Positions 527 to 12,710 of a DNA stretch of 36,625 nt are shown here, piece by piece; the stretch's first letter is position 1; each line of letters starts with the position of its first letter. Made by a program: the position numbers and the translations under genes. The notes beneath the pieces were generated by a model. It ran no database searches, was not told the origin of the DNA, and worked only from the letters and a program-made list of their open reading frames with translations. Source of the DNA: Lysobacter sp. (GTDB lineage Bacteria > Pseudomonadota > Gammaproteobacteria > Xanthomonadales > Xanthomonadaceae); NCBI GenBank assembly GCA_004322525.1, contig SCUY01000047.1, positions 1 to 36,625 on the forward strand. The letters are read 5' to 3'.

Positions 527-879
527 CGGTAGCCAAGGCCGGGCCGCCGGCTGCTGGCGGAGTCAGGGCGGGTCGGGCGTTCGAGTGCCCCGGTCGCGGG
601 TATGCCGGCCATGGCACGGTAGTAGTCGCCTGTGTCCGGCGATGGCAGGCCCGGTCGAAACGACGGGCCTGTCGGCATGCCGGCCGGAAGGAGCGGCCGG
701 CCACATGAAATCGCGGAGTGCAGCGCCGATCAATGGCGTGCAAAAACGTTCCGCCGCCGTGATTCCGAACGCCAGCCAAACGCGTTTCAGGCGTGAGAGC
801 GATGTGAACATCGCCTACACAAACCCGTCACTATCCTCGCCCGTCACTGCCCGTGGGGACGGGCGCATCGAGATCTCCC
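527..879. other. Intergenic region glnA to hybrid kinase, with hairpins
   Basis: About 350 bases without a supported gene. It contains a strong inverted repeat at 646-671: caggcccg pairs with cgggcctg, the stem extends through tcg/cga after one bulged g, and the loop is aaa. No T tract follows, so it is not a textbook intrinsic terminator, although it may protect or end the glnA mRNA. A second small hairpin (gcgatg-tgaa-catcgc) lies at 799-814. No convincing sigma-70 or sigma-54 promoter was seen for the downstream kinase. Confidence 0.5.
646..671. other. Inverted repeat / hairpin downstream of glnA
   Basis: The eight-base arms caggcccg and cgggcctg are perfectly complementary. The inner tcg-aaa-cga extends the stem after a single bulged g. 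It sits 120 bases after the glnA stop. The lack of a U tract argues against a classical terminator. A 3'-end stabiliser or a Rho-linked structure is possible but is inference. Confidence 0.45.
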
Positions 880-6348
<5,469 letters not shown>

Positions 6349-6368
6349 ACCCGCCCGAAGCCACTGCC

Positions 6369-8066
6369 ATGAACGCGCCGGTGCAGGCGGCGCAGGCACC
6401 GGTAACGATCCTGCTGGTGGACGACCAGCCGGGCCGGCTGCTGTCGTATCGCGCCATCCTCGAGCCGCTCGGCGAAAACCTCGTCGACGCGCGCTCCGGC
6501 GAGGAAGCGCTGAAGTACCTCATGCAGAACGAGGCGGCGCTGATCCTTCTCGACGTGAACATGCCCGGCATGGACGGCTTCGAGACGGCGAGCCTGATCC
6601 ACCAGCATCCGCGCTACGAAAAGACGCCGATCATTTTCGTGACGGCGGTGAACGTTTCCGATCTCGACCGCCTGCGCGGCTACAAACTCGGCGCGGTCGA
6701 CTACGTGATGGTGCCGGTGATCCCGGAGATCATGCGCAGCAAGGTCTCGGTGCTGGTCGAGCTGTATCGCAAGCGCCGCGAACTGCAGCTGGCCAATGCC
6801 AGCCTGGCGCGTGCCAACGAGGACCTGCGCGTCGAGAAGGCGCGCGAGCTGGAAGCGCTCAACGATTCGCTGCGCACCGCGAACGTCGCCCTCGCGCAGC
6901 GCAACATCGAACTGCAGGCGCAGGTGGCCGAACGCGAACGCGTGCAGGCGCGGCTGGTCGAACATGACCGCCGCAAGGACCAGTTCCTCGCCACGCTCGC
7001 GCACGAACTTCGCAATCCGCTCGCCTCGCTGTCCAATGCGACCAACGTGCTGAAGCTCGGCGGCGCCAGTGGCCCCGTCCTGCTCGATGCCATGGACCGC
7101 CAGCTGGCGCTGCTGGTGCGGCTGATCGACGACCTGCTCGACGTCGCCCGCATCAGCCAGGGCAAGCTCACCCTGCGCCCTGCCGCCACTACACTGGATG
7201 TGGTGCTGCGCGCCGCGATCGACAGCGTGGAGCCGCTGCGCCGCGAGGCCGGGCATGCGGCGCTTGAGGTGCACATGCCAGCCGGTGACGTGCTGCTGGA
7301 GGCAGACCCCGAGCGCCTCTCGCAGGTGTTCGCCAACCTCATCAGCAATGCAATCAAGTATTCGGATCCGGCATGCCCCATCCGTATCGATGCCGAACGG
7401 GCTGGCGACGACGTGGCGGTGCATATCCGCGATGGGGGCATCGGGCTGGCGCCTGAGCAGGTCGATGCGATCTTCGAGCCGTTCGCGCAGGTCGATACAT
7501 CGATCGAACGCGCGCGCGGCGGCCTGGGAATCGGCCTGACGCTGGTACGACGCCTGGTCGAGATGCATGGCGGCCGGGTGCGCGCGCACAGTGATGGCCT
7601 GGGCCATGGCACCACGTTCACCGTGTGGCTGCCGTTGGGCGCGCAGACGCTGCAGGCTGACGCCGCGCCGGTCGCCATCCCCGCCGCATTGCCGCGCCGT
7701 GTACTGGTGATCGACGACAACTGCGATTCGGCCGATACGCTCGCGCTGATGCTGGAGATGCTCGGCCATGAGGCGCAGCGCATCTACGACCCGCATGCGG
7801 CTGCGCAGGCCGTCGACAGCTTCGGGCCGGAGGTGGTGTTCCTGGACATCGGCATGCCCGGCGTGAGCGGCTACGACGTCGCGCGTCAGCTGCGCGCCGG
7901 GCCGCACGGCCCGCACCTGACGCTGGTGGCGGTCACCGGCTGGGGCCAGCCGGACGACCGCCGCCGTACCGCCGAAGCCGGCTTCGACCATCACCTGGTG
8001 AAACCGCCGGAGATCGAGACGATCTGCCGGATCCTCGGCGCGCTGCCGGAGCGTCGCCCGGCATGA
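6369..8066 (+). CDS. Hybrid histidine kinase, REC-HisKA-HATPase-REC
   Basis: A 565-aa soluble signalling protein. The N-terminal receiver (~residues 12-125) has the DD pair in LLVDDQ and the acceptor motif LLDVNMPGMDG. A coiled-coil linker (~130-200) leads to HisKA with LAHELRNPLASLSN (His212), HATPase_c with the N-box FANLISNAIKYS and G2 GGLGIGLTLVRRLVEMHGG, and a C-terminal receiver (VLVIDDN, FLDIGMPGVSGYD, HLVKPPE). In the first receiver the conserved Lys before the beta5 Pro is replaced (DYVMVPVIPEI), so its switching may differ, whereas the C-terminal receiver keeps it (VKPP). ATG 6369 is chosen because the longer ORF runs back into the upstream gene, and the 20-base spacing implies an operon. 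It could receive phosphate from the HAMP-array kinase through its N-terminal REC. That is inference. Confidence 0.93.
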   Translation: MNAPVQAAQAPVTILLVDDQPGRLLSYRAILEPLGENLVDARSGEEALKYLMQNEAALILLDVNMPGMDGFETASLIHQHPRYEKTPIIFVTAVNVSDLDRLRGYKLGAVDYVMVPVIPEIMRSKVSVLVELYRKRRELQLANASLARANEDLRVEKARELEALNDSLRTANVALAQRNIELQAQVAERERVQARLVEHDRRKDQFLATLAHELRNPLASLSNATNVLKLGGASGPVLLDAMDRQLALLVRLIDDLLDVARISQGKLTLRPAATTLDVVLRAAIDSVEPLRREAGHAALEVHMPAGDVLLEADPERLSQVFANLISNAIKYSDPACPIRIDAERAGDDVAVHIRDGGIGLAPEQVDAIFEPFAQVDTSIERARGGLGIGLTLVRRLVEMHGGRVRAHSDGLGHGTTFTVWLPLGAQTLQADAAPVAIPAALPRRVLVIDDNCDSADTLALMLEMLGHEAQRIYDPHAAAQAVDSFGPEVVFLDIGMPGVSGYDVARQLRAGPHGPHLTLVAVTGWGQPDDRRRTAEAGFDHHLVKPPEIETICRILGALPERRPA

Positions 8067-9417: not shown

Positions 9418-10200
9418 TTACCCGGTTATCCGCATCGACGGAGTCGGCGACAGCACGTCGTAGCTCTCTTTTTGCGGCTTACCCGGCAGCGCGGGCAGGG
9501 TGAGCGCGGGTTCGGCGTAGCGCGCGTCCGGCAGGCGATCGAGCAGGTGCCGGATGAGGGTCAGGCGGCCCAGCTTCTGGTCGTTGAAGTCGACCAGCGT
9601 CCATGGCGCCTGCGCGGTATGGGTAGCGCGCAACATCGCCTCGCGTGCATCCGTGTAGCGCTGGTACTGCGAGCGCGACTGCACGTCCACGGGCGACAGT
9701 TTCCAGCCTTTCAGTGGGTCCTGCAGGCGCTCCTCGAAGCGCTGCTCCTGCTTTTCCTGGTCCACGCACAGCCAGTACTTGAGAAGCCGGATGCCGTCGT
9801 CCACCAGCAGACGCTCGAACAGCGGCGCCTGGCGCAGGAAGGCCTCGTACTGGGCATCCGTGCAGTAACCCATGACCCGCTCAACGCCGGCGCGGTTGTA
9901 CCAGCTGCGGTCCATCAGCACGATCTCGCCGGCAGCGGGCAGGTGGGCCACATGGCGCTGGAAATACCATTCCCCGGCTTCGCGATCGGTGGGCCTGGGC
10001 AGGGCCACGATTCGACACTGGCGGGGGTTGAGGTGCTCGGCGATGGCCTGGATCGCGCCGCCCTTTCCCGCGCTGTCGCGGCCCTCGAACAGTATCAACA
10101 CGCGCTCGCCGGTATGGCGCACCCACTGCGCCAGGGCCACCAGTTCCAGTTGCATCGGTGCGAGCAGTGCGCGATACGCTTTCTTCTTCAATCCACTCAT
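9418..10200 (-). CDS. ppk2: Polyphosphate kinase 2
   Basis: A 260-aa cytosolic PPK2-family enzyme that transfers phosphate between polyphosphate and nucleotides. A P-loop ILFEGRDSAGKGG, the lid-type segment RIVALPRPTDREAGEWYFQRHVAHLP, the Walker B-type MDRSWYNRAGVERVMGY and the C-terminal WTLVDFNDQKLGRLTLIRHLLDRLP are all present. Length fits the single-domain class. The longer ORF begins at 10224, but ATG 10200 has a good ribosome site (tgagg, six-base spacing) and gives MSGLKKKAYRALL, so it is preferred. It converges on the DUF5329 gene across 231 bases that hold only a short hairpin (cggtaa-acgc-ttaccg, 9380-9395). It diverges from the SPFH gene. Whether ADP or GDP is preferred cannot be read from the sequence. 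Confidence 0.94.
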   Translation of the reverse strand: MSGLKKKAYRALLAPMQLELVALAQWVRHTGERVLILFEGRDSAGKGGAIQAIAEHLNPRQCRIVALPRPTDREAGEWYFQRHVAHLPAAGEIVLMDRSWYNRAGVERVMGYCTDAQYEAFLRQAPLFERLLVDDGIRLLKYWLCVDQEKQEQRFEERLQDPLKGWKLSPVDVQSRSQYQRYTDAREAMLRATHTAQAPWTLVDFNDQKLGRLTLIRHLLDRLPDARYAEPALTLPALPGKPQKESYDVLSPTPSMRITG

Positions 10201-10534
10201 GTCGGGCCTCAGGTGGTGGGACATCGGGCAGGTGGACGTGGTGCACGAACAGCCTTGGAGGATGCGGCTGTTCCTGTGCAGGCGTGGTGGTTTGCGGCCC
10301 TATGGAGAGGCGTCGCCTGATTACGAGGCGATGGCATCCCTCCGCCAGGAATCCACGGTGGGCAACCCGCGTGAAGGGCCATGCAATGCAACCGCGGCGG
10401 GCGCCTGCATGAGGTCAGGCACGCCTGATCCGGAAAGGGCCGACGCCCATGGCGGCCACGGAACATCTCGCAGGCGACAGGCGCCTAGAATCCGGAACCG
10501 GCGCGCATCGCGCCACCTGCGGCAGGGAGCGGAC
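10201..10534. other. Divergent intergenic region ppk2 / SPFH gene
   Basis: About 330 bases carrying the 5' regions of both genes and no supported ORF. On the + strand, TAGAAT at 10486-10491 could be a -10 element for the SPFH gene, but no good -35 lies at 16-18 bases. A GGAAC at 10460-10464 resembles the -35 of ECF-type promoters, but a matching -10 is not clear. The SPFH ribosome site agggag precedes ATG 10535. Confidence 0.35.
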
Positions 10535-11587
10535 ATGGGCGTTCTGGATTTCATCAAGGGCCAGGCCATCGAGATCATCGAATGGACCGACGACTCGCGC
10601 GACACGCTGTCGTGGCGCTTCCCCGATGAGGACAAGGAGATCAAGAACGGCGCGCAGCTGATCGTGCGCGAAAGCCAGCTGGTGCAGTTCGTCGCTGCCG
10701 GCCAGTACGCCGACCTGTTCGCGCCCGGCAAGCACACGCTGAAGACCGAGAACATCCCGATCCTCTCGCGCATTCTCGGCTGGAAGTACGGCTTCGAATC
10801 GCCGTTCAAGTGCGACGTCTACTACCTCAACACGCGCCTGTTCACCGGCAACAAGTGGGGCACCGCCAACCCGGTGATGATGCGCGACCCCGACTTCGGC
10901 CTGGTGCGCCTGCGCGCGTTCGGCACCTACGACTTCCGCATCGTCGATGCGCCGAAGTTCCTGCGCGAGGTCGCCGGCACCGACCAGAACTTCCGCCTCG
11001 ACGAATTCGCCGACACGATGCGTTCGCGCCTGGTCAGCGTGTTCACCGAGGCGCTGGCGCAGGCCAAGGTGCCAGCGCTCGATGTCGCCACGCGCTACAG
11101 CGAGCTCGGCGAAGCGCTGCTGCCGCTGGTCAACCCGATCATGCAGGGCAAGTACGGCATCGAGGTCACCACCTTCGTGCTTGAGAACGTGTCGGTACCG
11201 CCGGAAGTCGAAGCGGCGATCGACAAGCGCTCGGGCATGGCCGCGGTCGGCAATCTCAACGACTACGTCAAGTTCCAGATGGCCACCGGCATGGGCGCGG
11301 GCGGTGATGGCGCGGCCGCGGCCGCGGCACCGGCGCAGATGGCCGTGGGGTTCGCGATGGCGCAGGAGATGGTGCGTGGCATGCAGTCGCCTGCTGCGAC
11401 GGTTACCGCAGCCGCCCCTGCCGCGGCATCCGACGTACTCACGCCGGAGCAGGCGGCCCAGCTGCTGGCGGTGTCGGTGGAGGACGTGATCGCAGCCATC
11501 GAGGCCGGCGAACTCAAGGGCCGGAAGATCGGCAATGCCTGGCGCATCGCGCGCGCGTCGCTCGACGAGTACCTGCGCGGCGCCTGA
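10535..11587 (+). CDS. SPFH-domain (YdjI / virion-core-like) protein with C-terminal excisionase-type HTH
   Basis: A 350-aa protein. Residues ~1-250 (MGVLDFIKGQAIEIIEW, LIVRESQLVQFVAAGQ, LFAPGKHTLKTENIPIL, VRLRAFGTYDFRI) fit the YdjI-like branch of the SPFH (stomatin/flotillin-type) superfamily, whose members assemble at membranes. An Ala/Gly/Met-rich linker (~255-300) follows. The final ~50 residues, LTPEQAAQLLAVSVEDVIAAIEAGELKGRKIGNAWRIARASLDEYL, read as a MerR/excisionase-type helix-turn-helix. Many YdjI relatives end instead in a zinc ribbon, so this C-terminus is unusual. It could bind DNA or serve as a protein-interaction fold. The start at ATG 10535 has agggag six bases upstream. The next gene begins four bases after the stop, so the two form one operon. 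In B. subtilis, YdjI acts with YdjG/YdjH and PspA in membrane stress; no pspA is visible here. Confidence 0.88.
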   Translation: MGVLDFIKGQAIEIIEWTDDSRDTLSWRFPDEDKEIKNGAQLIVRESQLVQFVAAGQYADLFAPGKHTLKTENIPILSRILGWKYGFESPFKCDVYYLNTRLFTGNKWGTANPVMMRDPDFGLVRLRAFGTYDFRIVDAPKFLREVAGTDQNFRLDEFADTMRSRLVSVFTEALAQAKVPALDVATRYSELGEALLPLVNPIMQGKYGIEVTTFVLENVSVPPEVEAAIDKRSGMAAVGNLNDYVKFQMATGMGAGGDGAAAAAAPAQMAVGFAMAQEMVRGMQSPAATVTAAAPAAASDVLTPEQAAQLLAVSVEDVIAAIEAGELKGRKIGNAWRIARASLDEYLRGA

Positions 11588-11591
11588 CGAC

Positions 11592-12710
11592 ATGGCCGAG
11601 ATCGCGGTGCCCACGCCCGACGAGGCGCTCGACAAGCGCGCCTGCCCCGAATGCGGCGGTGACCTGCAATGGAACGCAGCGAAGAAGGCGCTGGTCTGCC
11701 CGTACTGCGGCACCGTCGCCCCGTGGGCGCCGGGTGACGCTACGCCTGTCGCGATCGCCGAGCTCGACCTCGCGCAGGCGCTGGCCAAGGAAGACGAGAG
11801 CGGCCGCGGCTACGGCACCGAGCGTCGCGAAGTGCAATGCCGCAGCTGCAAGGCGATCTCCGCGTTCGAGCCCGATCGCGTCGCCGCCCGCTGTGCGTTC
11901 TGCGGCTCGCCGGCGCTGGTTCCCTATGAGGCGCTGAAAGAAGCGATCACGCCGCAGAGCCTGCTGCCGTTCTGCGTGCCCGACACGCAGGTGCGCGAGT
12001 CGATCCGTCGCTGGTATGGCACGCGCTGGTTCGCACCGAACCGCCTGAAGAAGGCCGCGCTCACCGACACCCTGCGCGGTCTCTATCTGCCGTACTGGAC
12101 CTTCGACGCGCAGGTGCATGCGACGTGGACCGCCGAGGCCGGGCACTACTACACCACCAGCGAGAGCTACATCCAGAACGGCCAGACCCGCACCCGGCAG
12201 GTGCGACACGTGCGCTGGGAACCGGCGTCGGGCGAACTGCAGCACTTCTTCGACGACGACCTCGTGCCGGGTAGCGAAGGTGCGCATGCGGGTCTGCTGG
12301 AGAAGATCGAGCCGTTCCCCACCACCACCGACCTGAAACCGTATGCGCCCGAGTTCGTGCGTGGCTGGACGGTGGAGCGCTACCAGGTCGACCTGCGTCT
12401 GGCGGCCGAACACAACATGACGCAGATGCAACGCGCGGTGCATGACCTCTGCGCGCAGCAGGTACCGGGCGATACCCATCGCAACCTGCAGGTGCAGTCC
12501 ACGTATCGCGGCCGCACCTTCAAGCACGTACTGATGCCCGTGTGGCTGGTCAGTTACACCTACGGGCGCCGCAGTTTCCAGCTGCTCGCCAATGGCTACA
12601 CGGGCACGATCGCGGGCGAACGCCCCTACAGCGCGTTCAAGATCGCGCTCGCCGTGATCGCCGCCTTGATCCTCGCGGGCGGCTACTTCTGGCTGGACGG
12701 GCAGCGGTAA
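11592..12710 (+). CDS. Double zinc-ribbon protein with C-terminal membrane anchor (YdjG-like)
   Basis: A 372-aa protein. The N-terminal zinc ribbon is CPECGGDLQWNAAKKALVCPYCG (~residues 19-42) and a second is VQCRSCKAISAFEPDRVAARCAFCG (~83-108), both of CxxC...CxxC form. The middle is a mixed region with many aromatic residues (LYLPYWTFDAQVHATWTAEAGHYY). The C-terminus KIALAVIAALILAGGYFWLDGQR is a single membrane helix, placing the ribbons in the cytosol if the tail is inserted that way. Such proteins are often misnamed 'primosomal protein N' or 'helicase' because of the ribbons; no helicase motif is present. Its four-base spacing from the SPFH gene matches the SPFH plus zinc-ribbon pairing of ydjG/ydjI. 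The likely role, inferred, is to anchor or organise the SPFH assembly at the inner membrane. Confidence 0.85.
   Translation: MAEIAVPTPDEALDKRACPECGGDLQWNAAKKALVCPYCGTVAPWAPGDATPVAIAELDLAQALAKEDESGRGYGTERREVQCRSCKAISAFEPDRVAARCAFCGSPALVPYEALKEAITPQSLLPFCVPDTQVRESIRRWYGTRWFAPNRLKKAALTDTLRGLYLPYWTFDAQVHATWTAEAGHYYTTSESYIQNGQTRTRQVRHVRWEPASGELQHFFDDDLVPGSEGAHAGLLEKIEPFPTTTDLKPYAPEFVRGWTVERYQVDLRLAAEHNMTQMQRAVHDLCAQQVPGDTHRNLQVQSTYRGRTFKHVLMPVWLVSYTYGRRSFQLLANGYTGTIAGERPYSAFKIALAVIAALILAGGYFWLDGQR

Follow-up and report, generated by a model that had tools for sequence, protein, structure and literature searches.

SPFH scaffolds are widespread, and both the functions of their tails and the mode of anchoring of the YdjI class are poorly known. 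The closest described system is that of Bacillus subtilis, in which YdjI (YdjL in one paper) lacks an anchor, depends on YdjG/YdjH for its membrane localisation, and recruits PspA (PMC8581546). In YdjG, two zinc ribbons are combined with one further domain and a transmembrane segment, and the SPFH protein of the same system bears its own C-terminal ribbon (PMC11237479). The SHOCT domain has been found most often together with PF13421 (PMC3581485), the profile to which the SPFH domain of YdjI belongs. The architecture reported here, an SPFH domain ending in a helix-turn-helix (HTH), is already covered by an NCBI product name, 'SPFH and helix-turn-helix domain-containing protein' (WP_224153175.1), the gene after which is named 'TFIIB-type zinc ribbon-containing protein'. 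The resemblance to that entry extends to the whole architecture, but the entry provides a name only, and no paper naming or functionally studying the SPFH-HTH architecture was found in the open literature.

The window (the whole stretch of DNA analysed, 36,625 nucleotides of a Lysobacter sp. contig) carries a two-gene locus, the features of which all lie on the forward strand. The first gene (10535..11587, ATG at 10535) encodes a protein of 350 amino acids without a transmembrane segment, its maximum 19-residue hydropathy being 1.31. Its SPFH (Band_7_1) domain spans residues 27-236 (10613..11242) and is of the YdjI type, as evident from the profile match to PF13421 (3e-82; 275.8 bits against a gathering score of 24). 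Foldseek, run with the SPFH part, retrieved HflC (3.6e-09) along with structures of stomatin, prohibitin and flotillin. The variable Ala/Pro-rich linker that follows (residues 251-300; 11285..11434) is predicted to be disordered at residues 284-298, where the pLDDT falls below 50 in an AlphaFold2 model built on 59 relatives.

The tail (residues 301-348; 11435..11578) is a winged HTH of the HTH_17/excisionase type. It matches PF12728 with an E-value of 2.3e-12 (47.4 bits, cut-off 27), and the NCBIfam model 'excise' is in agreement (38.8 bits, cut-off 28.8). The AlphaFold2 model predicts a helix at 304-311, a turn, a recognition helix at 315-323, two wing strands at 329-332 and 335-339 and a closing helix at 340-349, with pLDDT values of 86-95. 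The best PDB sequence match of the tail profile is the phage Xis-like Gp37 (4j2n), with an E-value of only 0.014; designed repeat proteins that matched the tail in a single-sequence PDB search were a composition artefact and were dropped. The mean pairwise identity is 61% in the tail as compared to 31% in the preceding linker, and the tail is present to its end in all of the 80 best relatives; judged from these sequence comparisons, the tail is under constraint. An earlier note on this DNA had read the protein as an SPFH domain fused to a C-terminal HTH, and this reading is confirmed by profile matches above their cut-offs and by the predicted winged fold; the last residues do fold as an HTH, and they are conserved.

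The second gene (11592..12710) begins four bases downstream in the same orientation and encodes a YdjG-like partner of 372 amino acids, in which a pair of zinc ribbons and a beta-rich domain precede a predicted membrane helix at the C-terminus. Ribbon 1 (C18-x2-C21 ... C36-x2-C39; 11643..11708), which gives a weak TFIIB-ribbon match, and ribbon 2 (C83-x2-C86 ... C101-x2-C104; 11838..11903) each have four cysteines that are invariant in 49 homologues, and both would be expected to bind zinc. The transmembrane helix is predicted at residues 348-371 (12633..12704), which form a helix in the model and reach the maximum hydropathy of 2.08 at 348-366. The coupling of the SPFH-HTH protein to a membrane zinc-ribbon protein, also proposed earlier, is borne out by the two CxxC-CxxC pairs and the C-terminal hydrophobic helix of this neighbour. 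The beta domain has very long strands predicted with pLDDT mostly above 90, and Foldseek gave no convincing PDB match for it (best E-value 0.046), so that it may possibly represent a new fold. Beta-barrel pore proteins were rejected as its structural kin, as the matches were chance-level hits to long beta-hairpins (E-values of about 0.05 or more, probability mostly below 0.5). In a few Lysobacter loci (L077, L109, L111 and L129) the partner is about 80 residues longer (447-453 amino acids) than elsewhere.

The two genes form an obligate pair. Strong matches to the partner occur in 9/9 SPFH-positive relatives as compared to 0/52 other relatives, and in all 40 genomes of a phylum sample that carry the HTH or the GYF_2 type, with no strong match elsewhere in that sample; the HTH and GYF_2 forms strictly co-occur with it. 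The partner is adjacent in 73 of the 80 best related loci. Among the seven non-adjacent loci, one is cut by a contig end and the partner lies elsewhere in the genome in five of the other six, while the sixth genome, in which it was not found, is a 2.2-Mb draft. Distances between SPFH cores also correlate with those between partners (r 0.75), a value reached in none of 1000 permutations. The gap between the genes is not always tight, being about 470 bases in three Comamonas loci (L154, L156 and L164).

The partner is likewise the sole neighbour that recurs across lineages. No third gene common across lineages was found beside the pair in the 80 related loci, where the other neighbours are lineage-specific; in Comamonadaceae they include glyQ/glyS-like genes, and the contexts consist of ordinary chromosomal genes. 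According to the earlier note, the ribbon had been displaced from the SPFH protein onto its neighbour. This view does not hold, as the ribbon partner is conserved whether the SPFH tail is an HTH or a GYF_2 domain; the zinc-ribbon protein is therefore better regarded as a standing YdjG-like partner, a likeness to B. subtilis YdjG that is one of published layout and not of sequence. From the sequences surveyed, a PF13421 SPFH gene is as a rule accompanied by one for a ribbon protein, and the SPFH tail is the variable part.

A PF13421-type SPFH protein without an anchor and a two-ribbon transmembrane partner are shared with B. subtilis YdjI/YdjG, and the role of a membrane scaffold, as suggested in the earlier note, is supported by this homology. 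The same homology raises the alternative that the pair is a PspA-recruiting platform like YdjI, which depends on YdjG/YdjH and brings PspA to the membrane (PMC8581546), and that PspA is bound by the HTH. PspA is indeed present in 8/14 and 18/41 HTH-type genomes. However, it is missing in the other 6/14 and 23/41, about half of the genomes, including G002 and G404, which are both single-contig and 100% complete, and among 19 relatives that lack the SPFH gene, 7 possess it. Neither a conserved TPM (YdjH-like) gene nor a conserved pspA gene was found beside the pair, a further difference from the YdjI/YdjG/YdjH/PspA system. HTH-type genomes devoid of PspA rule out its obligatory recruitment, and PspA is not required; the alternative is accordingly quite unlikely. 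In such simple two-gene systems, some of them in PspA-less hosts, the role of the core can be separated from PspA.

Whole-genome searches across bacteria revealed four tail types on the SPFH core, namely HTH_17, GYF_2, SHOCT and a double zinc ribbon. In a tree of the core (first 250 residues, tail excluded), the HTH-type proteins form one group with a support of 100/100, to which the GYF_2 types are adjoined; the core alone thus sorts by tail type. The SPFH-GYF_2 and ribbon pairs of Pseudomonadota (such as L010 and L047) constitute the sister clade and have the same gene order, with about 45% identity in the core and about 30-35% in the partner, but their tail is a GYF_2 domain with proline-rich flanks. 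SPFH-SHOCT proteins, which occur with DUF4178, DUF350 and polyamine genes, have the same PF13421 core; they differ in their SHOCT tail, and most of them are without a YdjG-like partner and adjoin a DUF4178 zinc-ribbon protein and polyamine genes. The survey points to a conserved core, the SPFH domain with its zinc-ribbon membrane partner, that bears swappable tails. Relative to YdjI/YdjG, in which the tail is a C-terminal zinc ribbon and not a winged HTH, what stands out is this tail swap together with the charge reversal of the HTH contact helix described below.

Two variants were seen at the margins of this survey. In remote Lysobacterales without the HTH type (L276-L283, e.g. L276:3142-5796), a very divergent SPFH protein with a SHOCT tail, PF13421 being just below the cut-off, adjoins a homologous two-ribbon membrane partner (hhalign probability 99.5). 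The SPFH protein of L052 (1495-2286; 264 amino acids) has no tail domain at all, and a YdjG-like partner is still adjacent.

The best 80 relatives from a collection of 84,980 genomes all bear the HTH and are 60-85% identical over their best segment; this search was queried with HTH-type sequences and is thus biased towards them, the whole-genome searches being less so and yielding the same separation. A phylum sample of 241 genomes contained 10 HTH-type genomes, of which nine are 65-71% identical from end to end, the linker being longer in the tenth; the other full SPFH matches of that sample do not exceed 50% identity, and the match stops before the HTH is complete. Within the HTH-type clade, Pseudomonadota, Verrucomicrobiota and Acidobacteriota are intermixed, which suggests transfer between phyla. 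The survey of SPFH-HTH proteins and their neighbours that had been proposed earlier accordingly yields one HTH clade spread over three phyla, with the partner as its recurrent companion. Two records, which look mis-binned or mis-named, were left out of the evidence for this range: a metagenome-assembled genome titled Bifidobacterium breve (L153), whose HTH-type locus groups with Acidobacteriota in the tree, and Pantoea sp. 18069 (L144), in which the neighbours are Comamonadaceae-like.

The mixing of phyla, and a patchy distribution among 61 relatives searched as whole genomes (10/61 with a match, one through the HTH part only), would also agree with an anti-phage or other conflict system, and the earlier note had considered a defence device. 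PADLOC, however, returned weak matches only (the HTH to mad1, 0.012; the zinc ribbons to Cas models), and the neighbours are the ordinary, lineage-specific genes described above, with no defence island and with the partner alone recurring. No HTH-type match was found in 50,697 phage records, and 72,556 plasmid records contained a single copy, on a Comamonas replicon; the remaining SPFH matches in these records are distant relatives only. A function in conflict is, on these grounds, highly improbable.

The nature of the HTH was analysed by comparing 81 SPFH-HTH tails, which are related sequences spanning three phyla and not 81 independent cases, with 18 ordinary HTH_17 domains taken from the same genomes and from related ones. 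The net charge of the recognition helix is -4 to -2 in 81/81 tails as compared to 0 to +3 in the 18 controls, without overlap. Position 317 is Asp in every tail, whereas it is Thr in 13 of the 18 controls, and the mean net charge of the whole domain is -1.3 in the tails and +2.7 in the controls. The wing, on the other hand, is basic in all tails (+3 to +5), its basic residues being kept and even gained, and Arg337 is invariant. The tail therefore resembles HTH_17/excisionase (Xis) domains in fold, length and wing motif, and passes the Pfam and NCBIfam cut-offs, but differs from them in its acidic recognition helix, its invariant Asp and its mostly net acidic character. Retention of the HTH fold together with a reversed charge on the contact helix points to a protein ligand; the tail has probably lost the usual DNA-contact residues and binds proteins rather than DNA.

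These results bear directly on the proposal of the earlier note that the tail is of a DNA-binding kind and could link envelope state to DNA. In that case the scaffold would hold the nucleoid or a site on the chromosome at the membrane, or regulate genes when the state of the membrane changes. The fold itself is a genuine HTH_17/excisionase fold, the basic wing with its invariant Arg337 might allow residual or non-specific binding, and a multivalent display could offset weak binding. Yet the helix that would enter the DNA is acidic throughout, its residue 317 being Asp and not the Thr that prevails in ordinary domains, the domain is mostly net acidic, and the sister proteins carry non-DNA tails at the same place. 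The upstream region is also at variance with an operator or autoregulation by the HTH, which was rejected: clear conservation is confined to a -10-like block and the start region. When six loci of the same genus were aligned, CTAGAAT was the sole invariant block besides the start region, and it contains the hexamer TAGAAT (10486..10491), the putative -10 element of the two-gene operon, for which a promoter role is suggested by the conservation; CCTA(G)AAT recurs upstream of the pair in Comamonadaceae. No shared operator-like repeat was found in the upstream alignments, the repeats being weak and not common to the loci. DNA binding by the tail is hence unlikely, and a 'helix-turn-helix' annotation need not imply DNA binding, since in at least three phyla one of the tails is a DNA-binding fold with a reversed DNA-contact charge.

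The observations are best explained, with a probability of about 0.6, by a two-gene submembrane scaffold of the YdjI/YdjG type that acts independently of PspA and in which the HTH serves as a protein-binding or self-association tail. The zinc-ribbon partner would sit in the inner membrane through its C-terminal helix and recruit the soluble SPFH protein to the membrane, as YdjI needs YdjG/YdjH. By homology with other SPFH proteins, the SPFH protein may oligomerise into a ring or cage, each subunit displaying its winged HTH on a flexible Ala/Pro-rich tether. The HTH, its DNA-recognition surface lost, would then either link subunits by contacts between the acidic helix and the basic wing or recruit a client, and the GYF_2, SHOCT and zinc-ribbon tails probably do the same job in the sister proteins. 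The assembly would organise or protect the membrane under envelope stress with no need of PspA; a stress role of the pair is likely by analogy with the described system.

The way in which such tails might meet can be formulated more precisely. GYF domains bind proline-rich stretches, and in GYF_2 tails proline-rich stretches lie beside the GYF_2 domain in 60/60 cases, as compared to 0/13 SHOCT tails. Each of the two tail types, HTH and GYF_2, may thus contain both of the surfaces that a tail-to-tail contact would require. It is a tentative and rather doubtful extension of the preferred reading that the tails are interchangeable self-association clasps, in which the acidic helix of the HTH would dock on the basic wing of the next subunit (K328, R/K330, K331 and R337) and the GYF_2 domain on the proline-rich stretch of its neighbour. 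If true, a DNA-recognition fold would have become a head-to-tail linker that closes the SPFH ring or cage.

In a last alternative, the divergent ppk2 gene, in which the earlier note saw a possible stress link, would connect the SPFH scaffold with polyphosphate stress metabolism. A PPK2 gene (TIGR03707, 342 bits) does lie divergently at 9418-10224 in the window. Nevertheless, PPK2 adjoins the pair in 0/80 related loci, and outside those it was seen at one further locus only, of the GYF_2 type; the survey largely refutes this link, which is hardly credible. Further upstream in the window, a frame of 1846 residues (808-6345) encodes multiple HAMP stretches in an unusually long array, a GAF domain, a histidine kinase and three receiver domains, and it is followed by a second hybrid kinase (6249-8063); both are ordinary signalling genes.
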